From the IMG/VR virus record IMGVR_UViG_3300025138_007760, positions 1-48,381 of that record: a DNA stretch of 48,381 bases; one strand, given 5' to 3'. This stretch comes from a virus. Under the pieces are notes generated by a model. The model was not told where the DNA came from. It searched no databases and saw nothing but the letters and a program-made list of their open reading frames with translations. The translations under genes were made by a program, and so were the position numbers. Below are positions 5,558 through 38,801 of the stretch, piece by piece. Numbering within the stretch: position 1 is the first letter of the stretch; every line of letters begins with the position of its first letter.

Positions 5558-5799
5558 TGGCTAAAGAGATGATTGAAGATGTTGTAAAGTTCGATAACAT
5601 CATTTATGTTGGTGACTTAGTAGAAACTAAGTTTGGTGCTTGTAGAATTAAAAAAATTGAGTTAATGCCTGAAAAAAGACATTTCTCTAAGTGTGGAATA
5701 AATGTAAATAAAATGTTTACATCTATGATAGATCAGTGTATAATAGATCTAGATAACAGTCATTTTGTGTATGGAGATGAAATTGAAAGAATCGGTTAA
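5557..5799 (+). CDS. Hypothetical small protein (80 aa)
   Basis: Starts in a TAATG junction with the 5201 gene. Predicted mainly beta (DNIIYVGDLVETKFGACRI), like small SH3-barrel or KOW-type proteins, but there is no firm match. It overlaps the following gene's start region by about 23 bases. Confidence 0.7.
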   Translation: MAKEMIEDVVKFDNIIYVGDLVETKFGACRIKKIELMPEKRHFSKCGINVNKMFTSMIDQCIIDLDNSHFVYGDEIERIG

Positions 5800-6106
5800 A
5801 GTATTAAATGAATGCGTTGCATTACAAAATAAAAAATCTGATGATTATCAGAATAAAGAATCAAACGTAACTCAAGCAATGCATTATCGTCGTGGTGTTG
5901 ATAGTATACACGATATAATTCAAGGTAAGTGCTATCGTGCACAATCTATATTAGAAAGTCAAGGTGATCCAAACTTCGAATCACTCGAAGATACTTACAA
6001 AGATATGATTAACTATTGTTCTTTTGCGGTGTCGTATATGCGTGGTAAGATGGACGGCCAAAGGCTTGATAGAGATATGTACAACAAATTGAAAGGTAAG
6101 ATGTAG
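5777..6106 (+). CDS. DUF1599/Nmad1-like nucleotide-modification-associated protein
   Basis: About 109 residues, all-helical. The pattern KKSDDYQ ... GVDSIHDIIQGKCYR ... NFESLEDTYKDMINYCSF resembles the DUF1599 family (nucleotide modification associated domain 1), linked to base-modification gene neighbourhoods. It sits directly upstream of dCMP hydroxymethylase. Start choice is uncertain: ATG 5777 follows the upstream gene's GGAG too closely, TTG 5783 has that GGAG at six bases, and ATG 5771 has no ribosome-binding site. Its TAG overlaps the GTG start of the next gene. Confidence 0.6.
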   Translation: MKLKESVKVLNECVALQNKKSDDYQNKESNVTQAMHYRRGVDSIHDIIQGKCYRAQSILESQGDPNFESLEDTYKDMINYCSFAVSYMRGKMDGQRLDRDMYNKLKGKM

Positions 6107-6795
6107 TGATTAGTTATGATATGATAAAGACAGATGACATAAGATATTATTTTTGTAATGAATTAAAACAAGAAAACTTTGTCACTGATAAAAATGGTGG
6201 TAAACTAATTGAAATGATTGGTGCATGTTTCATTGCAGATAAGTCATCTATCTTTGGTACACCTAATCAAGATTATATCACAAGAGAAATTGCTTGGTAC
6301 AATAGCCAAATTGGTAATGTTAATGCTATAGCTGGTAAAACACCAGAAGCTTGGAAAATGGCAGCTAATGATTATGGCCAAGTTAATTCTAATTACGGTC
6401 AACTTATTTACTCTGATAAATACTTTAACCAGTATGGCAGAGTACTTGATGAACTCTTACAAAACGATGAAGGCCGTCGAGCCACTATGGTTTACAATAG
6501 ACCAAGTATATGGGAGGAATATAATGAAGAAGGTAAAAGTGATTTCATATGTACTAATGCCGTTACTTATTACATACGTAATGATAAATTATTCTGTGTT
6601 GTTCAAATGCGCTCTAACGATGTCGTGTTCGGATATAAGAATGACTATGCTTGGCAGCTTCATGTTTTAGAAACTCTAGTTGAAGATTACAATCAATGTA
6701 AGAATGAGATTATAGAACCAATTACATGTGGTGATATAATTTGGCAAGTACAGAACATGCACGTTTATGAAAGGCATTTTAATCTTGTCAAATAA
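6106..6795 (+). CDS. 42: dCMP hydroxymethylase (T4 gp42-like)
   Basis: Thymidylate-synthase-fold enzyme converting dCMP and methylene-THF to 5-hydroxymethyl-dCMP. It is colinear with T4 gp42 as I recall that sequence: the N-terminus MISYDMIKTDDIRYY corresponds to the T4 start, supporting GTG 6106. The active site is FICTNAVTYY with C149 (T4 Cys148), then MRSNDVVFGYKNDYAWQ with D180 (T4 Asp179), the Asp that replaces the dUMP-binding Asn of ThyA and gives dCMP specificity. The last motif is HVYERHF; the protein then stops about 17 residues earlier than T4 gp42. 229 residues. It overlaps the deaminase gene by 29 bases. Strong evidence that this phage makes hydroxymethylcytosine. Confidence 0.93.
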   Translation: MISYDMIKTDDIRYYFCNELKQENFVTDKNGGKLIEMIGACFIADKSSIFGTPNQDYITREIAWYNSQIGNVNAIAGKTPEAWKMAANDYGQVNSNYGQLIYSDKYFNQYGRVLDELLQNDEGRRATMVYNRPSIWEEYNEEGKSDFICTNAVTYYIRNDKLFCVVQMRSNDVVFGYKNDYAWQLHVLETLVEDYNQCKNEIIEPITCGDIIWQVQNMHVYERHFNLVK

Positions 6796-7222
6796 ATGGG
6801 ATAAAAGATTTTTAGAAATGGCAAAAGTTGTATCAACTTGGTCTAAAGATCCATCTACTAAAGTTGGTACTATTGCTGTAAGAAACAGAACAGTTATTGC
6901 TCAAGGTTATAACGGATTTCCTAGAGGCATTAAAGATGACAATAGATATCAAGATAGAGAAACTAAATACAAATTTATAGTACATTCAGAAATGAATGCT
7001 ATATACAATGCTGCACAAAACGGTGTATCATTAGAAGGATCAACTATATACACATATGGTTTGCCAATATGTCATGAATGTGCAAAGGGTTTGATCCAAG
7101 TTGGCGTTAGTAGAGTCGTATCACCAATACACAATGTACCAGAACACTGGAAGATATCATGTGGTATGACTAGATCAATGTTTACAGAAGCAAATATAAA
7201 ATGGGATTGGGTGAAAATATGA
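6767..7222 (+). CDS. cd: dCMP deaminase
   Basis: Zinc-dependent deaminase (dCMP to dUMP). VHSEMNAIYNA provides the zinc His and catalytic Glu; PICHECAKGLIQ provides the two zinc cysteines. 151 residues with ATG 6767, or 145 with TTG 6785, which has AAAGG about nine bases upstream; either is possible. It feeds dUMP to ThyX (14.9 kb) and competes with gp42 for dCMP. The end overlaps the BGT-like gene as ATGA. Confidence 0.93.
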   Translation: MKGILILSNKWDKRFLEMAKVVSTWSKDPSTKVGTIAVRNRTVIAQGYNGFPRGIKDDNRYQDRETKYKFIVHSEMNAIYNAAQNGVSLEGSTIYTYGLPICHECAKGLIQVGVSRVVSPIHNVPEHWKISCGMTRSMFTEANIKWDWVKI

Positions 7223-8331
7223 AAATACTTGTAACAGGAATGAATAAAAATCAAGTCACAGAAAACTTTTATTTACAACAGCAATTAAGAGTAGTGCCTT
7301 CACATTATTCATTACTAAGATGCTTAAGAGATATGGGTCATAGCGTTGAACAAAGGTTAGTAAAAATTGGTGAAGACTTATCATCATATGATAGAGTTAT
7401 TTGTTTCTTAGCTTCGCCAAGACAAGCACTGCAACTTACATTTTATAATGGCTTATGGGCAATACATAATACTCCAAAAGATAAATTAGTATTGGCTTTT
7501 GATGATTGGCAAACAGATGGAATATTTAAAGGCATTCTTTCCTGCACTGACAAAGAATCGCTCTTAAAAGAATTTACTATTAATCAAAGTACAACAGATC
7601 CGGATATTAGCAGAGAATTATTAGAACCACATACTGATGTTTTATTAGACGCAATAAAATATATTGGTGAAAAGAAATCACGTATTTTACTTTCTGTATT
7701 TGCTGGTGGTGATATGACTAAACTTATTGAATATGATCCAAGTTTATTATTTGGCTATAATCCAAATCCTTATCATAGAAATAGAGTACCAGGTAATAGA
7801 AGTGATATTCAAAAAAGCGAAATGAATTTTATGGAAGCACAACTTATTCCAACTGAAAAAGAAGATACTGTAGCTTGGTTTGACAAAGAAAAATGTTTTA
7901 ATTTTGCTTCTTTAGTGCAAGGTAAAACTGCTAAATGGTTAAAAAAACAAAATGTTACTAAATGGAAAATAGAATATTTTGGTTCTAGAAAAGAAAAACA
8001 AAGACGCTTATCAGAAGAAGATATGTGTAAAGTTTATGCTGAACAATGGGGATGCTTAATGCCAGGATACGATCATGCTGGATCTGGTTGGTGGAGAGCA
8101 AGACCTTTACAAGTTACTGATGCCGATTCAATATTGATTGGTGATTACACCGAACTTATGGTATTATTTGATAATGAAGAAGCGGCATCAGTAAAAGCTT
8201 CTGACCTCGAAAATCTATCAGATTCTGAGTTGGCACGTATAGCAACACTACAAAAAAGCTCCATATATACTAAACATCCTTTAAATAAAGAAACACAACA
8301 AACCGAATTGAAGAAAGCTTTAAACATATGA
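7219..8331 (+). CDS. T4 beta-glucosyltransferase-like (GT-B) DNA hydroxymethylcytosine glycosyltransferase
   Basis: 370 residues from ATG 7219, which has GGGTGA upstream and an ATGA junction. The layout follows T4 beta-glucosyltransferase (351 aa) as I recall it: an N-terminal Rossmann half with MKILVTGMN, VPSHYSLLRCLRDMG, SSYDRVICFLAS and KDKLVLAFDDW, then a C-terminal half with IEYFGSRKEKQ (T4 has IEFFGNAREKQ) and GSGWWRARPLQVTDADSIL matching the UDP-sugar-binding end. T4 BGT attaches glucose from UDP-glucose to 5-hydroxymethylcytosine in DNA. Here the next genes are Glf and a GalE-like epimerase, so the sugar donor may be UDP-galactose or UDP-galactofuranose. Fold and role are inferred from colinear motifs; the donor is speculation. 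Confidence 0.7.
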   Translation: MKILVTGMNKNQVTENFYLQQQLRVVPSHYSLLRCLRDMGHSVEQRLVKIGEDLSSYDRVICFLASPRQALQLTFYNGLWAIHNTPKDKLVLAFDDWQTDGIFKGILSCTDKESLLKEFTINQSTTDPDISRELLEPHTDVLLDAIKYIGEKKSRILLSVFAGGDMTKLIEYDPSLLFGYNPNPYHRNRVPGNRSDIQKSEMNFMEAQLIPTEKEDTVAWFDKEKCFNFASLVQGKTAKWLKKQNVTKWKIEYFGSRKEKQRRLSEEDMCKVYAEQWGCLMPGYDHAGSGWWRARPLQVTDADSILIGDYTELMVLFDNEEAASVKASDLENLSDSELARIATLQKSSIYTKHPLNKETQQTELKKALNI

Positions 8332-9338
8332 AAATATTAGTAGTAGGTGCAGGTTTTTCAGGTGCAGTAGTTGCGCATGAATTAGCAAAAGCCGGGCATG
8401 ATATACATGTTATAGATGAAAGAGATCATATAGGTGGTAACGCTTATGATTATGTAAATAATAAAGGCATTAGAATACACAAATATGGTCCACATTTATT
8501 TCATACAAACAATGAAAAAGTATATAATTGGGTTACTCAATTTGATAAATGGGTGCCATATAAACATAAAGTCAAAGCACAACTTAACGATGGCAGATAC
8601 GTAACATTACCAGTTAATAAAGAAACAAAGGATATTGTAGGTCATGAAAATATTGTTAGTACTTTTTATGCACCATATACATATAAGATGTGGGGTAAAA
8701 CAATAGAGGAATTAGATCCATCTATTATGAAAAGAGTAGCAGTTCGTGATGACGATAACGAATATTACTTTCCAAATGATGAATATCAAATACTGCCTGA
8801 AAATGGTTATACTTCAGTATTTGAAGAAATACTAGATCATAAAAATATTAAAGTAGATTTATCTGTACGATTCGATAGAAATATGGAAAAAGACTTTGAT
8901 CATATATTTAATGCTATGCCAATTGATGATTATTTTAATTATGTTTATGGTGCTTTACCATATCGTTCAATTAAGTTTCATCATGTAGACATACCTATGA
9001 CAAAGGTTCTACCAACAGGTACCGTTAATTTTACACATGACGGTCCTTATACAAGAGTTACTGAGTGGAAGAACCTTCCATGTCATGGCATAAATAATCA
9101 GTATACAACACTCACTTATGAAGAACCATGTGATTACTTAGTTAATAATCAAGAAAGATATTATCCAGTAAAAGACATTGACGGTAATAACAGAATAAAG
9201 TATGAACAATACAAAAATCTAATAAGATCAAATATGACATTCATAGGAAGATGTGGAATGTACGTTTACGTTGATATGCATCAAGCGATAAACTCAGCCC
9301 TAGCAATAACTAATAAATTTATGGAGAATAATAAATGA
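8328..9338 (+). CDS. glf: UDP-galactopyranose mutase
   Basis: Flavoenzyme interconverting UDP-galactopyranose and UDP-galactofuranose. 336 residues (E. coli Glf 367). FAD-binding VVGAGFSGAV at the N-terminus, then RDHIGGNAYDY, HKYGPHLFHTNNEKVYNWV, YTYKMWGKTIEELDP, VTEWKNLP and the C-terminal FIGRCGMYVYVDMHQAI that contacts the flavin. ATGA overlaps at both ends tie it to the BGT-like gene and the epimerase. In bacteria galactofuranose goes into surface glycans; here the setting points instead, or also, to DNA decoration. Confidence 0.95.
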   Translation: MKILVVGAGFSGAVVAHELAKAGHDIHVIDERDHIGGNAYDYVNNKGIRIHKYGPHLFHTNNEKVYNWVTQFDKWVPYKHKVKAQLNDGRYVTLPVNKETKDIVGHENIVSTFYAPYTYKMWGKTIEELDPSIMKRVAVRDDDNEYYFPNDEYQILPENGYTSVFEEILDHKNIKVDLSVRFDRNMEKDFDHIFNAMPIDDYFNYVYGALPYRSIKFHHVDIPMTKVLPTGTVNFTHDGPYTRVTEWKNLPCHGINNQYTTLTYEEPCDYLVNNQERYYPVKDIDGNNRIKYEQYKNLIRSNMTFIGRCGMYVYVDMHQAINSALAITNKFMENNK

Positions 9339-10084
9339 GAGTAGCAATCACTGGCTCAAGAGGCTTTATTGGTAGTCATCTTAAAACAAGATTAGAAAAA
9401 GATGGTCACGAAATAATTGAATGGGATTTAAGACAAGATCCACCAAAGTATGTATCAGATTTTAAACCTGACGAGATTAGCTATTGTATTCATCTTGCAG
9501 CATATGCTGATGTAAGAGCAAGTTTAAAAGATCCTGAAACATATTGGATAAACAACGTAGAAAATACTACAAGATTACAATTAATATGCAATCATAATAA
9601 TATACCATTACTGTATGCATCTTCTTCTTGTGTTCATAAATGGTGGTTATCACCATATGGTACTAGTAAAAAAGTAAATGAAGAAACAGCTTATCCTGGA
9701 CAAGTTGGATTAAGATTTACTACAGTTTATGGAGATGGTGCAAGAGAATCTATGCTCATTGGTAAATTAATAGATGGCACTATCGGTTATCTAACAAAGC
9801 ATGTAAGAGACTTTACACACGTTAGCGATGTAGTAGAAGCAATAGTTTTATTAATGTCCAAAGATATAAGAAGGCTAAAACCGGTTTATGACATTGGAAC
9901 TGGTGTTGGAAATGTTGTTGAAGACTTAGGAATATTAGCTGGCTGGGAAGGAATTGAAGTAACAAAGGGAGATCGATGCGAGGCACAAGACAATACTGCA
10001 GATATTACAGAAATGAAAGCATTAGGGTGGACACCAAAGGTCGATGTTAAAGATTATCTTATTACTAAAACGATCCCTTTCTAA
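9335..10084 (+). CDS. NAD-dependent sugar epimerase/dehydratase (extended SDR, GalE-like)
   Basis: 249 residues. ITGSRGFIGSHL is the NAD-binding glycine motif, SSSCVHK contains the active-site Ser, and YGTSK gives the YxxxK catalytic pair; RDFTHVSDVVEAI is characteristic of the epimerase/dehydratase family. Shorter than GalE (about 338), so it is a compact member. Placed between Glf and a methyltransferase with ATGA and TAATG junctions. The simplest role is UDP-glucose to UDP-galactose, the substrate of Glf, but other NDP-sugars are possible. Confidence 0.88.
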   Translation: MRVAITGSRGFIGSHLKTRLEKDGHEIIEWDLRQDPPKYVSDFKPDEISYCIHLAAYADVRASLKDPETYWINNVENTTRLQLICNHNNIPLLYASSSCVHKWWLSPYGTSKKVNEETAYPGQVGLRFTTVYGDGARESMLIGKLIDGTIGYLTKHVRDFTHVSDVVEAIVLLMSKDIRRLKPVYDIGTGVGNVVEDLGILAGWEGIEVTKGDRCEAQDNTADITEMKALGWTPKVDVKDYLITKTIPF

Positions 10085-11283
10085 TGAAATTTGCCAGTAT
10101 AATACCACTTATAGGTGGTGGAACAATTGCTATGCAAAATGTATTGCAAAAGAAACCAGAGTACTTATTAAGTTATGATGACTTTAAAGAAAACGATAAT
10201 CACTTGGTACAATATTACAAAGGACAAGTTCCCTATCATCTTTATGGAGATAATGGGGTACCTAATTTACCTAGTGTTGAGGTTATTAATACCGTTTGCC
10301 CATGTGCTGGTCTTAGCAGTCTTAGTCCTTCAGCTAGCAGCGATGCTGCTGCTAACGATTGGATGCTTACCACTTCTAATCTTGTCTTGGGCACACTCAA
10401 ACCTCAAGTATTCTGGGGAGAGAACGCACCAGGACTCGCTTCGAATATTGGAAAACCAGTTGTCTCAAAACTCAGAAAAATTGCAGAAAAGTTTGGTTAC
10501 ACTTTCTCAATTTATAAAACAAAATCTATCCTTCATGGACTAGGTCAAGTAAGAAATAGAACTTTTTATTTTTTTTGGAAAGGCGATAAAATACCACAGT
10601 TTGAATATATAAAAAGAGAACATGAAAAGATTGATGAAACTATTAGAGCCGTTAAAAGAAGATCTGATGATTCAATGAATGTTCTTACTAATAAATCAAC
10701 ACCTTCACACAACCCATTTTATAGATACGTTTTAGAAGAAATGTGTGGAGGCATTGGTCATAAAGATTTTGTTGAAAAAAAGATAACAAGATCTCAAAAT
10801 GCAATGGACTATATTGAGTGGAATGGCCAAAACTATAAAAACGTATCAAAATGGATGGACGAAAAAGGTTTTGATAAACTTGCTGAAAGATGTAGAATAA
10901 TACATGATAAGCTAGCTAAAGGTGGAAACATTATGAGAAAGCTTGTCCACTTTCCTAAAGAAACTATTGGTGCATTTGTTGGTCATTTACCTAATAATCT
11001 TACTCATCCAGATGAAGATAGGTTTTTGACTATAAGAGAATGTATGTCAATAATGAAATTGCCTGAAGACTTTACGTTACAAGGTGGACTAAAAAATTTA
11101 AATCATATATGCCAAAATGTGCCTGTTACTACAGCTGAAGATATGGCTGAGCACGTAAAGAAGTTTGTTGATGGTAGATTGGATAACCAATTGCTAGATA
11201 CAAATTTTTTAATTCAAGATAATACAAATAAAAGGTTAAATTTTGAAAAAAACAGTGTACATTTAGATGCTTTTATGGTATAA
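10084..11283 (+). CDS. DNA cytosine-C5 methyltransferase-like protein
   Basis: 399 residues. Motif I IPLIGGGTIAM, catalytic motif IV VCPCAGLSS with C74, motif VI WGENAPG, motif VIII QVRNRTFYFF and a C-terminal NVPVTTAEDMAEHV resembling motif X are all in order. The region between VIII and X holds the recognition domain. A C5 methyltransferase cannot act on a cytosine already bearing a C5 hydroxymethyl group, so beside gp42 its target may be unmodified or host DNA, or it may have a different chemistry. The last codons contain promoter P4, whose -10 overlaps the stop. Confidence 0.85.
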   Translation: MKFASIIPLIGGGTIAMQNVLQKKPEYLLSYDDFKENDNHLVQYYKGQVPYHLYGDNGVPNLPSVEVINTVCPCAGLSSLSPSASSDAAANDWMLTTSNLVLGTLKPQVFWGENAPGLASNIGKPVVSKLRKIAEKFGYTFSIYKTKSILHGLGQVRNRTFYFFWKGDKIPQFEYIKREHEKIDETIRAVKRRSDDSMNVLTNKSTPSHNPFYRYVLEEMCGGIGHKDFVEKKITRSQNAMDYIEWNGQNYKNVSKWMDEKGFDKLAERCRIIHDKLAKGGNIMRKLVHFPKETIGAFVGHLPNNLTHPDEDRFLTIRECMSIMKLPEDFTLQGGLKNLNHICQNVPVTTAEDMAEHVKKFVDGRLDNQLLDTNFLIQDNTNKRLNFEKNSVHLDAFMV

Positions 11284-22365: not shown

Positions 22366-22938
22366 ATGAAACTTTGGAAATACAAAAATTATGAAGAATA
22401 CGTGAAAGTCCAAACAGATGGTAATGTATCTAAACTAAAAAATATATGGGTCGATGAAACTTGTATCAAAAATATAGCAGAAATAAAACCTTTTGCTAAA
22501 AATATTATTTGTCATGGTACAAGAAACGGCACAGAACAAAAGCTTTTTAAAAAGCACATACCTGCTGCAAAAGTTATCGGCACTGAAATATCTCACACTG
22601 CAAATCAATTTGAAAACACTATTGAGCATGATTTCCACAATCCAATAAAAGAATACATAGGTAAGTTTGATATATTATACTCAAACTCGCTTGATCATTC
22701 GTATGATCCAGAAAAATGCATTAAGACTTGGATAGAGCAAATTAACACAGAAGGTCTTCTTTGTATTGATTTAGCACAAGGTAGAGAAATGGTATCAAGA
22801 GAACTTGATCCGCTTGAGATATCTACAGATGAACTTATTAATATGTTACGTCATGATTTTAAATTAAAATATAAACTAAGTAAAGTTATACACAGACCTA
22901 GAGGTATCAATAGCCAATTGATAATATTTGAAAAATGA
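22366..22938 (+). CDS. Class I SAM-dependent methyltransferase-like protein
   Basis: 190 residues. IICHGTRNGTEQKLFKKHIP is a GxxxG-type SAM-binding loop after strand 1, VIGTEIS ends strand 2 with the acidic residue, and FDILYSNSLDH gives the motif II/III region. First gene of the glycan island. Target not predictable; sugar or lipid methylation would fit the neighbours. Confidence 0.75.
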   Translation: MKLWKYKNYEEYVKVQTDGNVSKLKNIWVDETCIKNIAEIKPFAKNIICHGTRNGTEQKLFKKHIPAAKVIGTEISHTANQFENTIEHDFHNPIKEYIGKFDILYSNSLDHSYDPEKCIKTWIEQINTEGLLCIDLAQGREMVSRELDPLEISTDELINMLRHDFKLKYKLSKVIHRPRGINSQLIIFEK

Positions 22939-23729
22939 GAAGATTAATCTACCAAGTTTATACTGGAAAACCATCAAAGCTGTATGATCACTGTACAGCT
23001 TCGGTTAGAGCATACGCTAAAAAAATAAATGTACAATACATTATTCAAACTCAACCTATAATGAAAATTAAACCTGACGTATTTGCTACAAATCGTAGTA
23101 AAGAATCATACGAAAAACATGGAGGGTTTTTACCAATATATGAAAAAGAAAATGCATTTGATTTTTGGAATAACTATGATCAAATTTGTATCATTGATGC
23201 TGATATCTGGGTGCGTCCTAACTCACCAAACATCTTCTTGGAATTGGACGCTTTTGGTGGAACCACCGAATTTGCAGGAGTTGTGGAAAGAATGGCGCCA
23301 ATCGAACAATGGTATAAACAAAAATTAGCTGGATATACTAAGATGCAGTATTCTCAACTTACTGATGTTGATTGGGAGTGGAATCAAGATGGTGCATTAT
23401 TTTATAATATGGGCCTTATGCTTATGGGCAACAATTTTAAAAAATACCTTAAAAGGCAAAGCGGAAAAGAGTTTATACAAAGAGCAGAATTTAAAGATTT
23501 TGTTGATGGCCTAGGTGCATGGAAGTGGAGCACAGATCAAACCTTATTGAATTATTGGGTTAAGAAAGAAAAGATGGTTCAATCATATCTTAATTGGAAA
23601 TGGAATGCACTATATACAGCAATTCCAATTGAAAAAGTTAAAGAAGCTTATTTTGTACATTTCTTTCTAAAAGATAAATTACCAAATGGCGGTGAAAACG
23701 TTGATGAACTAATGGAGATTGTAAATTGA
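22935..23729 (+). CDS. GT-A glycosyltransferase (GT8-like)
   Basis: 264 residues, ATGA overlap with the methyltransferase. ICIIDADIWVRP holds the DxD metal/nucleotide-sugar motif; WNQDGALFYNMGLMLMG and the later WSTDQTLLNYW resemble the acceptor half of GT8-type enzymes. Probably uses a UDP-sugar donor. The island gives no acceptor information. Confidence 0.75.
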   Translation: MRRLIYQVYTGKPSKLYDHCTASVRAYAKKINVQYIIQTQPIMKIKPDVFATNRSKESYEKHGGFLPIYEKENAFDFWNNYDQICIIDADIWVRPNSPNIFLELDAFGGTTEFAGVVERMAPIEQWYKQKLAGYTKMQYSQLTDVDWEWNQDGALFYNMGLMLMGNNFKKYLKRQSGKEFIQRAEFKDFVDGLGAWKWSTDQTLLNYWVKKEKMVQSYLNWKWNALYTAIPIEKVKEAYFVHFFLKDKLPNGGENVDELMEIVN

Positions 23730-24067
23730 AAATTCAAATTGATATAAGTATGGGCGAATATATAGATAAGTATTCCATATTAATAATAAAACAAGACCAT
23801 GAACTTGATGTTTCAAAAGAGTTAGAGCAGTATGAAAGTCTTGATTTAGAATATCCAGGGTTTGATTACTACTTAGGGATTATGTTAGCAATTAACGAGC
23901 AATTGTGGGACTTAGAAGATGTTAAAAGAAAAGGCGTAGAAAGATTTAGTAAAGAGGAATCTAATACTGCATTTCTTATTACTCAAATAAATGATTTAAG
24001 ACACGAAACCAAGAAACGCATTGATATATATTTTGGCAGCGAAATAACCGAAAAGAAAAGCCATTGA
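23726..24067 (+). CDS. DUF6165-like protein of glycan clusters
   Basis: 113 residues from TTG 23726 (TTGA junction, GGAG upstream). IDISMGEYIDKYSILIIKQDHE resembles the DUF6165 signature (SxGExIDKxxILxIK), a helical family often beside glycosyltransferases. Assignment from memory of the motif. It overlaps both neighbours by four bases. Confidence 0.65.
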   Translation: MKIQIDISMGEYIDKYSILIIKQDHELDVSKELEQYESLDLEYPGFDYYLGIMLAINEQLWDLEDVKRKGVERFSKEESNTAFLITQINDLRHETKKRIDIYFGSEITEKKSH

Positions 24068-24834
24068 AACATATAGCTTTAAGATCTAAAAGTATAAGAA
24101 GTGGCGATAGACCATATACAACACCAGGACTTGGCGACAGATCTCATAGCGTTTTATTAGCATATCAATATGGTAGAGCACACAACTCTCCAGTAACACT
24201 ACATTTAACTGATGACAAATGGAGTATTGCAGGCGGAGTTCCTTCTGATAAAAAGAAAAACTCATGGGTAGAATTACTTGGATTATTGCCGTCAGGCGCA
24301 GTTTATGTTGAACCACATCCAGTTGAAAACTTATCAGAAGTTGATTGGATACGATATCTAAAATCAAAAGGAATAGATGCATACATTTATCATTGCGCTG
24401 ACACTATTGAAATGCATCCTAATGAAACGCGCGTCGGTATTGAAATGTCTCAATATTTAAAAACTTTACCTGAATTAAAACCAATTGTTAATAATGGTTG
24501 GTTACCAGATGAATTTATTACTGCACAATGGGATTCAACTGATTCACAAAGAACGTTACCAGAAGAATTAATAAAAGAAATACACAAGAAATATATGTGT
24601 CCAGTATTGTACATAGGCGGAGAAGGTAAAGGGTGGTTAAAAACCTCATTACCTCATATTGGCTTAGCATTAGCTAATGCTAAATTTCATGTTGGTAGCG
24701 ATTCTGGTATGATGCACATTGCTCAACTATATAAAAAATATGAAGACATACATATATACGACACAGCTGGCTCATACAGATCTCATCATTTAGTAAGAGC
24801 AATTAATAATGGAACAAAATATTTTAAGGTATAA
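24064..24834 (+). CDS. GT9-like (heptosyltransferase-type) glycosyltransferase
   Basis: 256 residues from TTG 24064. GLGDRSHSVLLAYQYGR resembles the N-terminal Rossmann start of GT-B enzymes and FHVGSDSGMMHIAQLY is the donor-binding motif of the GT9/ADP-heptose transferase family (GxDSGxxHxA). Shorter than LPS heptosyltransferases (about 320). TTG start, weak RBS, so likely coupled translation. Confidence 0.75.
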   Translation: MKHIALRSKSIRSGDRPYTTPGLGDRSHSVLLAYQYGRAHNSPVTLHLTDDKWSIAGGVPSDKKKNSWVELLGLLPSGAVYVEPHPVENLSEVDWIRYLKSKGIDAYIYHCADTIEMHPNETRVGIEMSQYLKTLPELKPIVNNGWLPDEFITAQWDSTDSQRTLPEELIKEIHKKYMCPVLYIGGEGKGWLKTSLPHIGLALANAKFHVGSDSGMMHIAQLYKKYEDIHIYDTAGSYRSHHLVRAINNGTKYFKV

Positions 24835-24839
24835 CTATC

Positions 24840-25439
24840 ATGATGGCAACTCATACAAATAAAGACTCTCATAACTTAATGCATATAATAAAAGCTGATA
24901 CTGTTGGCGCAGAAATTGGTGTTTGGATGGGTAACACTTCAACACAATTTCTTAAAAAAGGTCTTAAAAAGTTTTATATGGTTGATTCATATTCAACAGA
25001 ACCGTATAAAGAAAATACAGAAATGTCATTTCAAGAATATATTGCTAAATATTCTAAAATAACTGGTGAAATTGCTCCAGCTGGATTTCAAAAATATTAT
25101 GATAGAGTTTATGCAGAAATTAATTCAAGATTTAAAACACACAAAGAAGTTGAAATATGTCGTATGTTATCTGATGAATGGTTTGAAAAATATAGTGATG
25201 TTGAGTTAGACTGGATTTATGTTGATGGCGATCATTCATATGAAGGATGCTTAAGTGATTTAGAAAATTCATTAAAAGCTGTAAAACCAGGAGGACTTAT
25301 ATTAGGTGATGATTATGGTTGGCCTAATTCTAAATGGAATAAACCAGGTGTAACAAAGGCAGTTAACGAATTTATAAATAAACACAAATTAACAAATATC
25401 TTTAGACATGGTCAGACACAATTTGAAATTAGAATATGA
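24840..25439 (+). CDS. Class I SAM methyltransferase (Methyltransf_24-like)
   Basis: 199 residues. VGAEIGVWMGNTSTQFLK is motif I, MVDSYS follows strand 2, and LDWIYVDGDHSYEGCLSDL with VKPGGLILGDDYG is the typical signature of sugar O-methyltransferases of this group. ATG ATG at the start; either could serve. ATGA overlap with the HAD-nucleotidyltransferase fusion. Confidence 0.8.
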   Translation: MMATHTNKDSHNLMHIIKADTVGAEIGVWMGNTSTQFLKKGLKKFYMVDSYSTEPYKENTEMSFQEYIAKYSKITGEIAPAGFQKYYDRVYAEINSRFKTHKEVEICRMLSDEWFEKYSDVELDWIYVDGDHSYEGCLSDLENSLKAVKPGGLILGDDYGWPNSKWNKPGVTKAVNEFINKHKLTNIFRHGQTQFEIRI

Positions 25440-26812
25440 TAAAATTAATAGTATTTGATTTAGATGGCGTTTTAATTGATAGTAAAAAAATACACTATGA
25501 AGCATTAAACTGCGCTTTAGGATCTGAATATAGTATAAGCATTGATGAGCATTTAAGTACATATGATGGGTTGTCAACTAGAACAAAACTTAATATGCTT
25601 ACATCTAAAAAAGGTTTACCTACTGATAAACATTCTACAATAGCAAAACACAAACAAAAAGCTACTGTAGAAATTCTTAAGAAGATGGTAAAACCTCGAA
25701 AAGATTTCATAGATATGTGTAGAGAATTAAAAGATAGAGGTTATACTTTATCATGTGCAAGTAACGCTGTGCGTGAAACTGTTAAAATGAGTTTAGTACA
25801 ATTAAATCTCATTGAATATTTTGATTTTTGGTACAGCAACGAAGATGTAGAAAAACCTAAACCGCATTTTGAAATGTATTTTAAAACTATGCTAAAAGCA
25901 AATGCAAAGCCTAGTGAAACACTTATAATTGAAGATAGCCATATTGGAAGACAAGCAGTATTAGATAGTGGCGCACACTTACTGGCAGTAGAAAACACAC
26001 AAGATGTATACCTAAGTAAAGTATTAGATAAAATTGAAGAAGCTAATAAAACTCCTCAACAAAATATACCGTGGAAAAGTAAAAAAATGAACGTATTAAT
26101 ACCAATGGCTGGTGCTGGCAGTAGATTCCAAGAGCAAGGTTACACATTTCCAAAACCTTTAATTGAAGTAGGTAATAAACCTATGATACAGGTTGTCACT
26201 GATAATTTAAATATTGATGCTCATCATATTTACATCGTACAAAAAGAACATTATGAAAAATTTAACTTAGAAATTGTTTTAAAACTAATTAAGCCTGATT
26301 GCACTATAGTTCAAGTAGATGGAATCACTGAAGGCGCTGCATGTACGACTTTATTAGCTAGAGAATATATTGATAATAACGATCCTCTTGTTATTGCAAA
26401 CTCTGATCAGTTTATTGAATGGAATAGTAACGAAGTTTTATATGCATTCAGCACTGAAGGTATAGGTGGTGGCATACTTACTTTTAAAACTACTCATCCG
26501 AAATGGAGTTATGTTAAATTAGATAAAAATGGATTTGTTAGTGAAGTGGCAGAAAAACAACCAATTTCTGATAATGCTACTGTTGGCATATATTATTGGT
26601 CTCGTGGAAGTGACTACGTAAGTTGTGCTGATGAAATGATAAAAAAAGATATTAGAACAAATAACGAATTTTATGTTTGTCCAGTATTTAATCAATTTAT
26701 AGAACGTGGTGGAAAAATTAGAATTAAAAATATTCATTCTAATGGAATGTGGGGATTAGGTACGCCTGAAGATTTAAATCATTTTTTAAGTAATTATAAT
26801 AAGGACGTATAA
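25436..26812 (+). CDS. Fusion: HAD phosphatase + sugar nucleotidyltransferase
   Basis: 458 residues, two domains. 1-210: HAD hydrolase with FDLDGVLIDS (D8, D10), SCASNA, and IIEDSHIGRQA for metal binding. About 218-458: NTP-transferase with NVLIPMAGAGSRFQEQGY, FPKPLIEVGNKPMIQ, IANSDQFIEW and a C-terminal GLGTPEDL. A phosphatase joined to an activating enzyme suggests one polypeptide that makes or clears a sugar phosphate and converts it to an NDP-sugar for the surrounding transferases. Confidence 0.85.
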   Translation: MIKLIVFDLDGVLIDSKKIHYEALNCALGSEYSISIDEHLSTYDGLSTRTKLNMLTSKKGLPTDKHSTIAKHKQKATVEILKKMVKPRKDFIDMCRELKDRGYTLSCASNAVRETVKMSLVQLNLIEYFDFWYSNEDVEKPKPHFEMYFKTMLKANAKPSETLIIEDSHIGRQAVLDSGAHLLAVENTQDVYLSKVLDKIEEANKTPQQNIPWKSKKMNVLIPMAGAGSRFQEQGYTFPKPLIEVGNKPMIQVVTDNLNIDAHHIYIVQKEHYEKFNLEIVLKLIKPDCTIVQVDGITEGAACTTLLAREYIDNNDPLVIANSDQFIEWNSNEVLYAFSTEGIGGGILTFKTTHPKWSYVKLDKNGFVSEVAEKQPISDNATVGIYYWSRGSDYVSCADEMIKKDIRTNNEFYVCPVFNQFIERGGKIRIKNIHSNGMWGLGTPEDLNHFLSNYNKDV

Positions 26813-27564
26813 TGAAACCTGTAATCTGTGTTTCCGGTATTGCTAGAGGGAACTGTAAAAAAAATATAAGTCATCTAGAAAAAGCATTTCCGGAAATACC
26901 TATTTACTTTTCAACATGGACAGAATACAAAAATGATATATCAGAAAAATACAAATCAACTTATCATAATGAACCAGAAGTTAATTATAATCCTTGGTTA
27001 GAATGTGTCAGCGATCCTCCTCATGTAAAATACAAAGAGTATAAAGAAGCTTTTATTAATAAAAAAAATGGGGGTTTAGTTGATAATGCAAGAACAACTA
27101 AGAAACTGCTTCATCATACAAAACAAATTATAGGCCATGCTTACCAACTCGATTATGACATACCATTAGAATACGATATGATTATAAGAATAAGATGGGA
27201 TACTCTTGTATCTAACAAGGTAGACTTTACACAATATCTAGAAACATCATATAATGATAACATTCCAATTGGATTTGCTATAAGAGGCGGAAGATGGACA
27301 AACTTAGATCAATTTAAAGATATTGAACATGTTCACATTACTGAAACTACAGACTTAACTTGGAGCCGAGACTGGCATTGTTGGATAAATGATAATATGA
27401 TATTTCATCCTAGAAAATTATTCGATACAAAATTAGTGCATAAATTTAATGAAGAGAAAAAATTGTGGCCTGCTGAATATGGGTGGTATCAAATGTTAAG
27501 TGTAATGAATAACCATCATTGTGTTTATGGCGGTGCTGCTATTGAAAGATTTATTCGTGCTTAA
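26812..27564 (+). CDS. Putative glycosyltransferase (WavE-like)
   Basis: 250 residues starting in a TAATG junction. VICVSGIARGNC and IYFSTWTEY at the N-terminus and EYDMIIRIRWDTLV in the middle match the RxRxD pattern of WavE-type/LPS-synthesis proteins; NDNMIFHPRKLFD resembles the later acceptor-side motif. Donor and acceptor unknown. Confidence 0.6.
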   Translation: MKPVICVSGIARGNCKKNISHLEKAFPEIPIYFSTWTEYKNDISEKYKSTYHNEPEVNYNPWLECVSDPPHVKYKEYKEAFINKKNGGLVDNARTTKKLLHHTKQIIGHAYQLDYDIPLEYDMIIRIRWDTLVSNKVDFTQYLETSYNDNIPIGFAIRGGRWTNLDQFKDIEHVHITETTDLTWSRDWHCWINDNMIFHPRKLFDTKLVHKFNEEKKLWPAEYGWYQMLSVMNNHHCVYGGAAIERFIRA

Positions 27565-27982
27565 CGTATTATTTCAAAGATATAAATCTAATAGACAACA
27601 ATATTCTTTATTTTATGAAGCGCAACTATTTCAATATAGGCATAAGCCTATAAACATATTACAAATTGGCATAGAAAATAGCATACCAGTGTGGCATAAG
27701 TATTTACAAAGATCTAACATTTATTGTATCGATGAATTTAATAGAAATCAACCAGATAAATACAAATATCTAGAAGAAAAAAGAATATATTGGTCACGTT
27801 GCGATACTAATGATCAAAAGAGTATTAATGATGTTATGCTAAATGTATGGAATAAACCACGGTTTAATGTTATTATAGATAATACTAATAACTTTGGATT
27901 AACTCGCCATAGTTATTTAAAAAGATATTGTATCGGTAAATATTATATAGAAGATGGTGATAAAGTAAGGATTATGAAATGA
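27557..27982 (+). CDS. Degenerate methyltransferase-like protein
   Basis: About 141 residues from GTG 27557; TTG 27542 is possible. INILQIGIENSIPVWHKYL and IYCIDEF, then FNVIIDNTNN, follow the order of cephalosporin-hydroxylase/MycF-like SAM methyltransferases (LEIGI, GxDI, FDxxIDDG), but the glycine-rich loop is altered and the acidic motif has NTN instead of DGS. It may be a short or inactive member. Confidence 0.5.
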   Translation: MLNVLFQRYKSNRQQYSLFYEAQLFQYRHKPINILQIGIENSIPVWHKYLQRSNIYCIDEFNRNQPDKYKYLEEKRIYWSRCDTNDQKSINDVMLNVWNKPRFNVIIDNTNNFGLTRHSYLKRYCIGKYYIEDGDKVRIMK

Positions 27983-28677
27983 AAGCATATGCAATAGTAG
28001 TACCAGGCAATCAAATATCAATGTCTGGATTTAACGAACTTAAAGAAAGCTATGATAAATACGGCCATGATGATGGCTTTGAAATGCATGAAGCAATTGA
28101 ACTTAATAAAGTAGAAGGATATTGTGGTGGTAATGGATTAGTTTGGAACTATCCGTGGGAAGGCCAAGAATTAGATATGAAAAGCGGTATGCTAAAGTCT
28201 GCATATCAAACTACAGATAAAAGAAAGCGTATGTCATGTTTTTTAAGTCACTGGTATCTATGGCAAAAATGCAAAAATATTAATGAAACTATATTAATAC
28301 TTGAACACGATTCACGATTCATAAAAAGACTACCAGCTCACAGCACGTTTGAGAAATGTAATTTTGATATTATAGGAATAAACGATCCATCAATGGCTAC
28401 TAGGAAATCTAAAGTATATCATGATAAAATCTTAGAAAAGACTGATTTATTTCAACCAGTTCCTAGGATTGACGAATATAACATTCCACAAGGATTAGCT
28501 GGTAATTCAGCATATGTGATAAAACCAGCAGGTGCACAACTTATGATTGATTTAACACAGGAATACGGTATGTGGCCAAACGATGCACTCATGTGTTATC
28601 AATTAGTTCCTAAGCTTGGTGTAACACGTAATTTCTATACAAGAATACAAGGATTGAGGTCAACAACAACACTATGA
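27979..28677 (+). CDS. GT25-like glycosyltransferase 1
   Basis: 232 residues, ATGA junction. KRMSCFLSHWYLWQKC and ETILILEHDSRF are the GT25 (LPS biosynthesis) landmarks: the GCxxSH-type helix and the EDD/EHD catalytic strand. GNSAYVIKPAGAQLMID is the C-terminal motif. A paralogue follows immediately. Confidence 0.8.
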   Translation: MKAYAIVVPGNQISMSGFNELKESYDKYGHDDGFEMHEAIELNKVEGYCGGNGLVWNYPWEGQELDMKSGMLKSAYQTTDKRKRMSCFLSHWYLWQKCKNINETILILEHDSRFIKRLPAHSTFEKCNFDIIGINDPSMATRKSKVYHDKILEKTDLFQPVPRIDEYNIPQGLAGNSAYVIKPAGAQLMIDLTQEYGMWPNDALMCYQLVPKLGVTRNFYTRIQGLRSTTTL

Positions 28678-29315
28678 AAATGTATGTAATAACAATAAAA
28701 GAAAATGAAAGATCAGTACAAGTTGCTGATAGATGTGTTAAAAGTGGTTTAGTATTTGGTTACAAAGTAAACAAACATACAGCGTATACTCCACAAAACT
28801 GTGATGTGTATGAAGAGTTAAAGAAACTAAAGTATCCTTCTGCGGCATTTAATGAAATATATAGTAGACCAGAAAATTGCATAGCAGGTTTTCTAAGTCA
28901 CCACAGTTTATGGAAAAAGTGTGTTAGGTCTAAAGAGCCTATAGTTATATTTGAACATGACGCAGTATTAGTTGGAGATATTCCACAAATGCTGATGTTT
29001 GATATCTTAAACCTTGGTAAACCATCATACGGTAAATTTAACACACCATCATTTATAGGTTATGGATCACTTGTATCTAAACCATATTTCCCAGGTGCGC
29101 ATGCGTACAGGCTAACACCAAAAGGTGCACAGCAGTTAATTGATGAATGCGTATTTTCTGCGGGGCCAACAGACATATACATCCATTCAAGTAAATTTAC
29201 ACTAGGTGAATATTATCCTTGGCCAGTTGAAGCACGAGACAGTTTTACTACAATACAACAAAAGCAAGGATGCTACGCAAAACATAATTATGGTGAAACT
29301 TATGAAATCATTTAA
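28674..29315 (+). CDS. GT25-like glycosyltransferase 2
   Basis: 213 residues. AGFLSHHSLWKKC, PIVIFEHDAVLV and GAHAYRLTPKGAQQLID match the same motifs as the gene before it, so this is a tandem duplication that has diverged. ATG 28674 overlaps the upstream stop (ATGA); the next in-frame ATG is two codons later. Confidence 0.8.
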   Translation: MKMYVITIKENERSVQVADRCVKSGLVFGYKVNKHTAYTPQNCDVYEELKKLKYPSAAFNEIYSRPENCIAGFLSHHSLWKKCVRSKEPIVIFEHDAVLVGDIPQMLMFDILNLGKPSYGKFNTPSFIGYGSLVSKPYFPGAHAYRLTPKGAQQLIDECVFSAGPTDIYIHSSKFTLGEYYPWPVEARDSFTTIQQKQGCYAKHNYGETYEII

Positions 29316-29955
29316 AACATTTGACAAAGCATTTATTACTGGTTGTGACGAAGGTCATGAATGGATGCTACCATGGTTTTTTAAAAACTATAAAGCCTAT
29401 TGCAACAAACCACTTGTATTTTCTGATTTCGGCTTAAGCAAAAAGGGGCTTGAATTAGTTAAACAAAATGCACAGGCAGTTATGAATTTAGGTCAAGTAG
29501 AAGAAAAAGGTTGGTTTCGAAAACCGTTATCTATGTGGAAATCTCCTTCGAAGAAAACTGTATGGATAGATTTAGATTGTGAAGTTAAAGATAATATTGA
29601 TGGCATATTTGATTTATTAGAACCTAATAAATTAGCAATGGTTGAAGACAAACCGTGGACATTACGGCGTAAGCATCTTTGGCATAACTCAGGCGTTGTT
29701 GGCTTTATAGATAAACCTATAATACTATCATTATGGTGCGGTGCTGTTCGAAAAGATCATAGTAATGGTGTAGGAGATCAAGAAATACTTGATAAGCTAT
29801 TAAATCCTATTACAAAAATTACTTACATTAAAGATTTACCTAATGAATATAATGTAATGAGATTACAAACTGAAGCAGATGGATACAAAGGTAAAGTGCG
29901 AATCATGCATTGGACTGGAAAAAAAGGCAAAGATAAGATTAGGAGTATGCTATGA
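29302..29955 (+). CDS. GT-A glycosyltransferase-like protein
   Basis: 217 residues from ATG 29302 (GGTGA upstream); the frame is open further back inside the GT25 gene. FITGCDEGHEWMLPWF begins the fold, KTVWIDLDCEV supplies a DxD, HNSGVVGF and GDQEILDKLL resemble the acceptor region of GT8/GT-A enzymes. Overlap of 14 bases with the previous gene. Confidence 0.7.
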   Translation: MKSFKTFDKAFITGCDEGHEWMLPWFFKNYKAYCNKPLVFSDFGLSKKGLELVKQNAQAVMNLGQVEEKGWFRKPLSMWKSPSKKTVWIDLDCEVKDNIDGIFDLLEPNKLAMVEDKPWTLRRKHLWHNSGVVGFIDKPIILSLWCGAVRKDHSNGVGDQEILDKLLNPITKITYIKDLPNEYNVMRLQTEADGYKGKVRIMHWTGKKGKDKIRSML

Positions 29956-30572
29956 ATAAGGTGGTACATATTATTGGAAACGGTGATCAATCGAGTTTGT
30001 ACTTAAAAGAAACACGAGTTGGAATGAAACTAACTTGTAATATTCCTCCTTGGCCTGTACCTGGTGCGTATGGTACGATCATGGTTGATTTTAAAATGAT
30101 GAAAGCTTTACATGAAGGAACACTAACTATTCCTGGTGATTGGATTTTAGGTATGAGACCTAAGATTTGGATGGATCAACAGCCTACCTTTTACGTTAAA
30201 CATTCTTCTCAAGTAAGAGAATTTTATACCACTCTTCCAAAATATGTAGCAAACTATACAGATTTTAATTGTGGCCATATGGCTGTACACTATGCAGCAA
30301 ATAAAGTTAAAGCAGACGAAATACATCTATATGGATTTGATTCACTTTTTGATTTTAACTTAAGAAGTTGTTCTGACTTATATCTTGAATCTGATAGAGG
30401 TAATATGAATAATCATAGACTTGCTAACAATTGGAGACCAGTGTGGGAAAAAATGTTTAATGAATTCCCTAACACTAAGTTTGTATTACATCACGTTCAT
30501 AATGCACTTAAAGTTAAAGTGGCACAAAATGTGCGTGTTGTAACATATAATTCAAAGACTAAAATGGATTAA
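29952..30572 (+). CDS. Hypothetical protein of the glycan island (DUF115/Maf-like?)
   Basis: 206 residues. VVHIIGNGDQSSLYL at the N-terminus looks like a nucleotide-binding loop, IMVDFKMMKAL and ADEIHLYGFDSLFDF resemble strands in DUF115/sialyltransferase-like proteins that act on glycans. Last gene of the island; its stop lies one base before the P8 palindrome. Confidence 0.6.
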   Translation: MNKVVHIIGNGDQSSLYLKETRVGMKLTCNIPPWPVPGAYGTIMVDFKMMKALHEGTLTIPGDWILGMRPKIWMDQQPTFYVKHSSQVREFYTTLPKYVANYTDFNCGHMAVHYAANKVKADEIHLYGFDSLFDFNLRSCSDLYLESDRGNMNNHRLANNWRPVWEKMFNEFPNTKFVLHHVHNALKVKVAQNVRVVTYNSKTKMD

Positions 30573-34725: not shown

Positions 34726-35279
34726 TGGAAATACTAGTAGCGTACTGCACGTATTACGTATTAGCAACTATTGGTATAACGTACGGATTTCATAGAACAT
34801 TTGCTCACGGCGGATATAAAGCAGGACCATTCATTGTAGATCGATTTATAGAATGCGTTATGCTTTATTGTGGTGTATTATGTGGAGGTCAATCTGCGTT
34901 AAGTTGGTGTGGTGTTCACAGAATGCATCATGCGTATGCCGATACACCAAAAGATCCACACTCTCCTATATACAAAAAATGGTGGGAAATATTATTCTCT
35001 ACATGGAGAGTAAAGTGCATTCCACGTAAGTTTGTAAAAGATTTATACAATAATCCTCGGGTTATGTTCTTTCATAAGTATCGATATTATATTTTAGGAC
35101 TTACTTACATAGTCTTTTATCAATACTTATTGTACTTACTTACAGCATTCGTATTATCATATATATTTTATGGTACACTAAATCTATTTGGACATACTGA
35201 TACAGGACCAGTGAATAGATGGTGGATAAATATATTTGCGCCGTTTGAAGGAAGTCATAATGATCACCACAAAAAATAG
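34725..35279 (+). CDS. Short fatty acid (acyl) desaturase
   Basis: 184 residues. All three histidine boxes of membrane desaturases are present: HRTFAH (23-28), HRMHH (65-69) and HNDHH (178-182), with hydrophobic helices between. They bind the di-iron centre that inserts a double bond in an acyl chain. The protein ends two residues after the last box, well short of the usual 250-300, so it is a minimal form. Overlaps the next gene by 20 bases. Confidence 0.88.
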   Translation: MEILVAYCTYYVLATIGITYGFHRTFAHGGYKAGPFIVDRFIECVMLYCGVLCGGQSALSWCGVHRMHHAYADTPKDPHSPIYKKWWEILFSTWRVKCIPRKFVKDLYNNPRVMFFHKYRYYILGLTYIVFYQYLLYLLTAFVLSYIFYGTLNLFGHTDTGPVNRWWINIFAPFEGSHNDHHKK

Positions 35280-36655: not shown

Positions 36656-37194
36656 TTAAAGTACAAAGTATAGATGAAATCCTACCAATACTTAATATTG
36701 CGTCTCAAGAAAAACATAAAAATAGATTAAACTATAATATCGATCGTATAAAAAAGAGATGGGAACATTACATGTGTTTTCATAAACTTGTTGATCACGA
36801 ATTAGGTGGAGTAATTGCGATATCTGGTGTTTATAAGTATCATGATAAACTTGCGAGAGTTATCGACAGGACGTGGGTTCATCCGTATTATAGATCAACA
36901 TTCATACACAAAAATAATAATATGATCGTAAGACCGGTCATTGATTACTTTCTTCCGTATCAAACAGAATATTGTAGAAAACGAGGTATGACATCATTTG
37001 TGTCAATACAATATCCAAGTAAAACAAAAGTACTTGAAAGACTTATAAGAGAAACTCATTGTGGTTATAAATTACTACCTGATTTTTATTTTACGTGTCA
37101 ACATGATAATTATGAAAATGTAAAGTGTTGGCAAAGATGTATATCAACAGGTGAAATTGATCTTGCAAAAAAATCAGTCGGTGAGATAATCTAG
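36640..37194 (+). CDS. GNAT-like acetyltransferase candidate
   Basis: 184 residues from ATG 36640 (GGAAAG upstream; in-frame GTG at 36625). GGVIAISGVYKY, then RVIDRTWVHPYYRSTFI and a following helix, with GMTSFVSIQYPS, have the strand-loop order of GNAT N-acyltransferases, but the CoA loop is not classical. Last plus-strand gene here; it overlaps the end of the minus-strand gene 37174-37860 by 21 bases. Confidence 0.5.
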   Translation: MEFELVKVQSIDEILPILNIASQEKHKNRLNYNIDRIKKRWEHYMCFHKLVDHELGGVIAISGVYKYHDKLARVIDRTWVHPYYRSTFIHKNNNMIVRPVIDYFLPYQTEYCRKRGMTSFVSIQYPSKTKVLERLIRETHCGYKLLPDFYFTCQHDNYENVKCWQRCISTGEIDLAKKSVGEII

Positions 37195-38791: not shown

Positions 38792-38801
38792 TATGCATTT
38801 C

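Follow-up and report, generated by a model that had tools for sequence, protein, structure and literature searches.

Predicted galactofuranosylation of hydroxymethylcytosine in DNA by an operon of a marine T4-like phage

The operon and its genes

The window analysed here, the whole stretch of 48,381 nucleotides, is a 48-kb genome fragment of a marine T4-like phage. A first-pass annotation had described five overlapping open reading frames (ORFs) in it; all are present where that annotation had placed them, and they agree, the dCMP deaminase included, with the families it had named. The operon extends beyond these five genes: a DUF1599 gene precedes them (5765–6106) and a C5-cytosine DNA methyltransferase gene follows (10084–11283), each of which overlaps its neighbour by one base.

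5765..6106, + strand: DUF1599 (Nucleotide modification associated domain 1), all-helical; Pfam PF07659, 7e-7
6106..6795, + strand: dCMP hydroxymethylase, T4 gp42 type; 229 aa, GTG start
6767..7222, + strand: dCMP deaminase; Pfam PF00383, 7e-18; phrog_174, 5e-40
7219..8331, + strand: putative DNA hydroxymethylpyrimidine glycosyltransferase, GT-B fold like T4 beta-glucosyltransferase (BGT); 370 aa; phrog_14998, 1e-30
8328..9338, + strand: UDP-galactopyranose mutase (Glf); Pfam GLF, 1e-49
9335..10084, + strand: NAD-dependent sugar epimerase, GalE-like, short; Pfam PF01370, 5e-23
10084..11283, + strand: C5-cytosine DNA methyltransferase; Pfam PF00145, 3e-16

The transferase ORF has an alternative in-frame start at 7201. 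Because the gene order is kept across dozens of viral contigs, the arrangement is not due to chance.

Genes acting on the base

The gp42 of the window belongs to the thymidylate-synthase superfamily (Pfam, 5e-13) and matches T4 dCMP hydroxymethylase (1b49) at 2e-67 in phmmer, whereas thymidylate synthases in the PDB match it at 4e-7 only. Its identity is 49% to T4 gp42 (E = 2e-69) versus 29% to RB69p048 (E = 6e-9). Residues E61, C149 and D180 align to T4 Glu60 (folate-side), Cys148 (catalytic) and Asp179 (dCMP-specific), which bears out the cysteine and the aspartate that had been singled out from the sequence; position 60 in T4 numbering is Phe in RB69-type enzymes. An in-silico attempt to refute the pathway proposed below on this point failed, the gp42 being of the hydroxymethylating T4 type and not the hydroxylating RB69 type. 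Judged by these alignments, the window gp42 is a T4-type dCMP hydroxymethylase, not an RB69-type 5-hydroxy-dCMP synthase. RB69-type hydroxycytosine was considered as the acceptor and rejected, the gp42 type and the Glu60 equivalent speaking against it; no arabinose-5-phosphate isomerase, as in the RB69-type route, was found among the operon genes.

The DUF1599 gene lies upstream of gp42 in most related loci, usually adjoining it. Its product was modelled with a pLDDT of 86, and dCTPase/MazG-type folds recur among its PDB matches, all of them insignificant; it is possibly a dCTP-removing enzyme. That no dCTPase was identified was counted against the pathway proposed below. The C5 methyltransferase keeps the PC, ENA and QxRxR motifs and is common to L010, L014, L062, L063, L167 and L173. 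Its presence in the operon is hard to square with complete replacement of cytosine and was likewise counted against that pathway.

A transferase with a predicted fold like that of T4 beta-glucosyltransferase

The protein encoded at 7219–8331 matches neither a Pfam nor an NCBIfam family and is a member of phrog_14998, which is annotated as being of ‘unknown function’. Its AlphaFold model (pLDDT 80, pTM 0.80) retrieves T4 BGT as Foldseek ranks 1 and 2 in the PDB (best 1qkj; E = 8.4e-7 and 2.1e-6, probability 1.00), at TM scores of 0.52–0.55, which denote the GT-B class and by themselves are no proof of a DNA acceptor. A sequence search of the PDB gave no match, and hhalign against BGT gave an alignment confined to the first ~70 (N-terminal) residues (E = 3e-4, probability 39%). 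The earlier description of this protein as colinear with T4 BGT thus stands for the fold, with BGT the top PDB match in the structure prediction that had been suggested as a check; likeness in sequence is hardly visible, N-terminal and weak.

Conserved motifs of the family are FDDW and GSGWWR. The invariant D95/D96 of FDDW follow a strand at 90–94 that was matched by eye, without residue superposition, to the strand preceding BGT D100; R293 and R295 are also invariant, and Q298 falls, again by eye, where BGT has E272. Among 84,980 cellular genomes the transferase had a single match, itself on a phage-like contig, so that the family is virtually phage-only. We consider the protein a putative DNA hydroxymethylpyrimidine glycosyltransferase.

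Genes predicted to supply the sugar donor

The assignment of the next gene as a UDP-galactopyranose mutase (UGM) was confirmed by the Pfam match and by conservation of the catalytic residues. Glf matches Klebsiella UGM at 2e-63 in phmmer and retains aligned equivalents of Arg174, Arg280, Trp160, Tyr349 and Asp351 (Klebsiella numbers); it lies above the Pfam cut-off and below the NCBIfam equivalog cut-off (272 versus 304 bits). For the epimerase, called GalE-like in the first-pass annotation, membership of the NAD epimerase family holds, and the match to NCBIfam galE (TIGR01179) is short and weak at 64.5 bits against a cut-off of 262.3. The enzyme may work like GalE. The operons of L043, L054, L167, L180 and L190 carry a clear GalE; epimerases of sister operons score 143–216 bits, also below the galE cut-off, yet GalE is their best family.

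Linkage of transferase and Glf across phages

The transferase adjoins Glf in 65 of 80 decidable viral loci. The two are adjacent in Erwinia phage FBB1, Aeromonas phages Aes508 and AS-gz, Stenotrophomonas phage IME13, actinophage DSL-LC01 and C48C1, distant relatives with transferases of 25–35% identity. The order of the two genes is reversed in the Straboviridae relatives, and T4-type gp42 is present in FBB1, Aes508 and AS-gz.

Glf does not adjoin the transferase in a freshwater clade. Its absence from that clade was considered and proved wrong, Glf lying elsewhere in the 173.8-kb record (L067); of the long genomes tested, the 123-kb L139 likewise has a split pair with Glf elsewhere. A UDP-glucose dehydrogenase-like gene occupies the slot in L139, and an exchange of Glf for this gene was ruled out, Glf being kept in a glycan cluster of the same record. 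Glf was not found in the transferase-bearing Providencia and Morganella phages, which have an arabinose-5-phosphate isomerase beside the transferase, or in Gordonia phage Forza. The host of Forza is a mycolic-acid bacterium that makes its own UDP-galactofuranose. Another sugar source, the isomerase or the UDP-galactofuranose of the Forza host, is likely in these relatives.

Members of the C48C1 clade have a TET/JBP oxygenase in place of gp42 next to the transferase and Glf, and L183 combines the gene backbone of the window with TET instead of gp42. The two enzymes occur in 54 (gp42) and 17 (TET) loci, and none of these 71 has both. A TET route in the window itself was rejected: Tet_JBP (PF12851) has no match in this 48-kb genome fragment, and the 2OG oxygenases at 35–39 kb are of other kinds, one being TauD. 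Production of hydroxymethylcytosine (hmC) by the C48C1 TET was also considered and is weakened by two observations. TET genes 93% identical to the C48C1 type have as neighbours an amino acid:DNA transferase and a P-loop kinase-like gene, and neither a C5 methyltransferase nor a member of the thymidylate synthase family was found in C48C1. These neighbours and the missing C5 methyltransferase make thymine the probable substrate of the C48C1-type TET, in a thymine hypermodification.

Proposed pathway

The enzyme families, the active sites of T4-type gp42 and UGM, the BGT-like fold and the conserved linkage, as established by sequence or structure, lead us to propose, with a probability of roughly two in three, that the operon converts UDP-glucose via UDP-galactose to UDP-galactofuranose and transfers the sugar to hmC in the phage's own DNA. 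Gp42 would turn dCMP into hydroxymethyl-dCMP for phosphorylation and polymerisation into DNA, while the deaminase would drain leftover dCMP towards dUMP. The epimerase would convert UDP-glucose to UDP-galactose, Glf would contract the ring to give UDP-galactofuranose, and the BGT-like enzyme would attach galactofuranose to hmC in DNA through its hydroxymethyl group, a modification that would probably shield the DNA from nucleases of the host. From these data we infer DNA as the acceptor, UDP-galactofuranose as the donor, and the anomeric linkage, extent and purpose of the modification; galactofuranose as the final sugar is likewise inferential, as sequence does not tell it apart from galactopyranose or glucose. 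The order of steps, drawn up beforehand from the window, gains support from the transferase–Glf linkage in distant phages, the swap of TET for gp42 and clear GalE genes in sister operons. The weak galE match of the window's own epimerase and the faint N-terminal likeness of the transferase to BGT in sequence weigh on the other side.

The strongest competitor, to which we give about one chance in six, is that the transferase modifies hmC in DNA with UDP-glucose or UDP-galactopyranose, with Glf and the epimerase working for a different glycan and placed alongside for reasons of regulation. T4 BGT, the nearest fold, takes UDP-glucose; the window is rich in glycosyltransferase and methyltransferase genes at 22–31 kb; Glf stands apart from the transferase in the freshwater clade; and Glf of the same kind occurs in glycan-type clusters without the transferase in about 18 of 65 newly fetched Glf loci, so that UDP-galactofuranose can serve another end. 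Against this, the pair persists across unrelated phage groups and at differing genome positions, with transferases at 25–35% identity, genomes with a split pair still have Glf, and a phage supplying UDP-glucose or UDP-galactose would find Glf superfluous.

Less probable still is that the DNA carries a different furanose or a longer glycan, with Glf acting on UDP-arabinopyranose or UDP-GalNAc, or with galactofuranose as the first of several sugars. Such a product would suit the transferase relatives beside arabinose-5-phosphate isomerase, the dehydrogenase-like gene in the L139 slot, the further transferase-like gene adjoining Glf in L062 and DSL-LC01, and the arabinofuranose of RB69-type phages (by the title of He et al. 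2026, cited in PMC13390438); the canonical UGM catalytic residues speak against it, as do sister operons with a GalE-like epimerase and not a pentose or GalNAc pathway. It is improbable that the products of the sugar genes modify virion proteins or a host surface glycan, with the transferase a surface-glycan enzyme and chance neighbour in a nucleotide operon: published annotations link phage Glf to the cell wall (PMC6630229, PMC10611076), and Glf occurs in glycan-type clusters of related phages, but the transferase is all but confined to phages, has a fold like that of a DNA glucosyltransferase and accompanies enzymes that hydroxylate bases, either gp42 or TET.

Relation to known systems

The galactofuranose pathway proposed here resembles T4 hmC glucosylation by gp42 with alpha- and beta-glucosyltransferase in its dCMP hydroxymethylase, its location in the same pol-to-UvsX interval, its BGT-like fold and, presumably, post-replicative sugar transfer. 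Unlike T4, which uses host UDP-glucose and in which no Glf was found, the window phage brings its own sugar-donor genes, and its transferase forms a separate sequence family. RB69 and other Mosigvirus phages also encode sugar-donor genes in the pol–UvsX interval by a thymidylate-synthase-family enzyme, and a furanose is reported for them too (He et al. 2026, by its title). The RB69 enzyme differs in being a 5-hydroxy-dCMP synthase and in having Phe where T4 has E60, and neither a homologue of the window transferase nor Glf was found in RB69. Arabinosyl-hmC, given in the first-pass annotation as known from T4-like phages, needs correction, the RB69 modification now being reported as arabinosyl on 5-hydroxycytosine (PMC13390438).

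TET/JBP phage hypermodification and kinetoplastid base J are comparable through the C48C1-type relatives, which pair Tet_JBP with the transferase and Glf; the window differs in using gp42. A likeness to the virus-encoded glycosyltransferases and diverse DNA glycans of Pyle et al. 2024 (Cell Reports 43:114631; cited in PMC13216743) is drawn from the title of that paper. No description of galactofuranose on DNA was found in the papers that our literature search covered.

Implications

A broader scheme, which we offer tentatively and at somewhat less than even odds, would make phrog_14998 a phage-wide family of DNA furanosyltransferases in a modular system, with gp42 giving hmC, TET/JBP probably hydroxymethyluracil and the RB69-type synthase hydroxycytosine, and with UDP-galactofuranose supplied via Glf or arabinofuranose via arabinose-5-phosphate isomerase. 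The galactofuranose reading lends itself to direct testing, since isolates of Aeromonas and Erwinia phages that carry this cassette have been sequenced. If it is true, galactofuranose, so far a sugar of cell walls and glycoconjugates, would also be a DNA modification, spanning marine, freshwater, Aeromonas, Erwinia and actinobacterial phages. Phrog_14998, so far without an assigned role, would gain a function, and there would be a reason why many phages carry a UDP-galactopyranose mutase so far read as cell-wall related. Restriction enzymes and CRISPR would face a new DNA surface, and the transferase would offer a new enzymatic tool with which to tag hydroxymethylcytosine.

Operon composition and the expected base

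The window, a 48.4-kb virus record whose closest named relative by UvsX comparison is phage C48C1 (74%), followed by T4-like phages, carries the five overlapping genes proposed in the first-pass annotation, all of them real ORFs. The operon extends beyond these in both directions, with a 1-base overlap on each side (families of the five central ORFs are from Pfam and PHROG):

5765-6106, DUF1599 gene, at the 5' end
6106-6795, thymidylate synthase family (gp42, dCMP hydroxymethylase)
6767-7222, dCMP deaminase
7219-8331, transferase without a Pfam family; phrog_14998, function unknown
8328-9338, GLF (Glf, UDP-galactopyranose mutase)
9335-10084, NAD epimerase
10084-11283, C5-cytosine DNA methyltransferase, at the 3' end, catalytic motifs intact

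The acceptor base depends on whether gp42 is of the T4 or the RB69 type, because the RB69-type enzyme makes 5-hydroxy-dCMP, with arabinose then attached directly to the ring (PMC13390438). For the protein encoded from 6106, the match to T4 dCMP hydroxymethylase has an E-value of 2e-67, and a whole-record search shows 49% identity to T4 gp42 versus 29% to RB69p048. T4 residues Glu60, Trp82, Cys148, and Asp179 all align with identical residues in the window, Glu60 and Trp82 being replaced by Phe and Ala in RB69, Providencia PSTRCR_127, and Morganella Rgz1. Given these T4-type residues, hydroxymethylcytosine (hmC) is the base to be expected in the DNA of this phage. T4-type gp42 also occurs in transferase carriers FBB1, Aes508, AS-gz, and freshwater record L067.

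The C5 methyltransferase, immediately downstream of the epimerase, co-occurs in related loci of the set with gp42, not with Tet_JBP oxygenases (TET). It counts against the proposed pathway, since its substrate would be missing if hmC replaced cytosine totally; replacement may be partial, or the enzyme may target other DNA.

Elsewhere in the window, a Cupin gene (PF07883; 12353-12685) directly follows UvsX; L023, L028, and L030 are among the relatives that have it between gp42 and the DUF1599 gene instead. Glycosyltransferase-, methyltransferase-, and nucleotidyltransferase-like ORFs at 22366-30572 resemble a glycan cluster and include an apparent HAD-nucleotidyltransferase fusion (25436-26812). 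Several short 2OG-Fe(II) oxygenase-like ORFs lie on both strands at 35236-39236, one of the TauD family (35930-36655) and none of Tet_JBP.

Transferase fold and distribution

The transferase had been likened to T4 beta-glucosyltransferase (BGT). An AlphaFold model from a 27-sequence alignment (pLDDT 80, pTM 0.80) bears this out for the fold, sequence similarity being weak: BGT is the best Foldseek match in the PDB (1qkj, E 8.4e-7, probability 1.00, TM 0.53/0.55), with T4 alpha-glucosyltransferase at rank 14. The alignment has invariant FDDW (94-97) and GSGWWRxR (288-295), both conserved in distant members apart from small changes. A search of 84,980 genomes of bacteria and archaea gave a single match; its contig encodes gp42, deaminase, transferase, and Glf together and is therefore phage-like.

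Linkage to proposed furanose donors

Transferase queries retrieved 87 viral loci, 80 of them decidable, and Glf adjoins the transferase in 65 of the 80. Of the 15 remaining, tblastn does place Glf next to the transferase in L063, L065 has it at 3 kb distance, and the last 13 belong to one freshwater clade of the transferase tree, whose longest record (173.8 kb) carries Glf elsewhere. The two genes are side by side in phages FBB1, Aes508, AS-gz, IME13, C48C1, and DSL-LC01 (transferase identity 25-35%); in Straboviridae, their order is reversed and the pair lies between motA and asiA. Glf was not found in transferase carriers Rgz1, PSTRCR_127, and Gordonia phage Forza. Rgz1 and PSTRCR_127 have the RB69-type synthase; the transferase adjoins an annotated arabinose-5-phosphate isomerase in Rgz1 and a gene of the same position and length in PSTRCR_127. 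The host class of Forza synthesises UDP-galactofuranose (UDP-Galf) for arabinogalactan. All three phages fit a furanose donor.

Actinophage DSL-LC01 (L087 1-15326), outside the T4-like group, has the same gene set: besides transferase, Glf, and C5 methyltransferase, it encodes dCMP deaminase and two proteins resembling thymidylate kinase and thymidylate synthase, the latter with the dCMP-type Asp.

Aligned with the Klebsiella mutase, the window Glf conserves both catalytic arginines, Trp160, Tyr349, and Asp351. The epimerase had been called GalE-like; its NAD epimerase family holds, with GalE identity weak (249 aa only; galE score 64.5 bits, far below cut-off). Operon epimerases of L043, L054, L167, L180, and L190 have GalE as best family (143-216 bits), and that of L043, the one checked, has UDP-glucose 4-epimerases as best PDB matches. 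With a GalE-type epimerase and Glf in one operon, these five loci appear to encode the full route from UDP-Glc through UDP-Gal to UDP-Galf. A cytidylyltransferase-like gene (PF01467) recurs in sister operons (L167 1560-2072, L184 3851-4270, L218 1741-2181).

TET in place of gp42

A C48C1-based search gave 19 loci, most with TET, epimerase, transferase, and Glf and without gp42. At L183, TET occupies the gp42 slot, followed by transferase, Glf, window-type epimerase, UvsX, and ThyX in window order. Across all loci, gp42 occurs in 54 and TET in 17, never together, and the TET loci form a single fully supported clade of the transferase tree. Since TET swaps for gp42 while transferase and Glf stay, the latter two would work downstream of base hydroxylation. 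The acceptor of the TET version is probably thymine, because near-identical TET genes (L197 and kin) adjoin an amino acid:DNA transferase and because neither C48C1 nor the 116-kb record L188 yielded a C5 methyltransferase or a gene of the thymidylate-synthase family.

At L071 7586-11033 and in L178-L196, TET, (epimerase), transferase, and Glf form a single run that probably represents a hydroxymethyluracil counterpart of the cassette, akin to base J. At L197 4998-7979, a Tet_JBP gene 93% identical to the C48C1 copy has the amino acid:DNA transferase (PF18724) on one side and a P-loop kinase-like gene on the other, which suggests thymine hypermodification initiated by TET.

Glf beyond the cassette and a possible modular reading

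Counting against the proposed DNA glycosylation, Glf also occurs outside the transferase cassette. Of 65 newly fetched Glf loci, about 18 are clusters of glycosyltransferase and methyltransferase genes that lack the transferase, and their Glf copies are interspersed with cassette copies in the Glf tree. L139 also counts against it: the companions of its transferase are genes resembling GalE and UDP-glucose dehydrogenase, and its Glf lies elsewhere.

In L139 (3000-8999), L136, L158, and L169, a Glf ~70% identical to the window's lies within a glycosyltransferase and methyltransferase-like cluster, with no DNA-type transferase nearby. A variant cassette at L218 2159-7896 (123-kb record) comprises gp42, deaminase, UDG-like gene, transferase (41%), GalE-like epimerase, UDP-glucose dehydrogenase-like gene, and C5 methyltransferase; this version may use a different sugar acid.

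Pyle et al. (2024) reportedly describe virus transferases that attach diverse glycans to DNA. Our literature search found no report linking UDP-galactopyranose mutase or galactofuranose to phage DNA, an earlier description being possible (Pyle et al. 2024; Lee et al. 2025); two papers interpret phage Glf as cell-wall related (PMC6630229, PMC10611076). A more novel possibility, at a probability of about 0.4, is that phrog_14998 proteins are phage-wide DNA furanosyltransferases, combined in a modular cassette with varying base hydroxylators and furanose donors.
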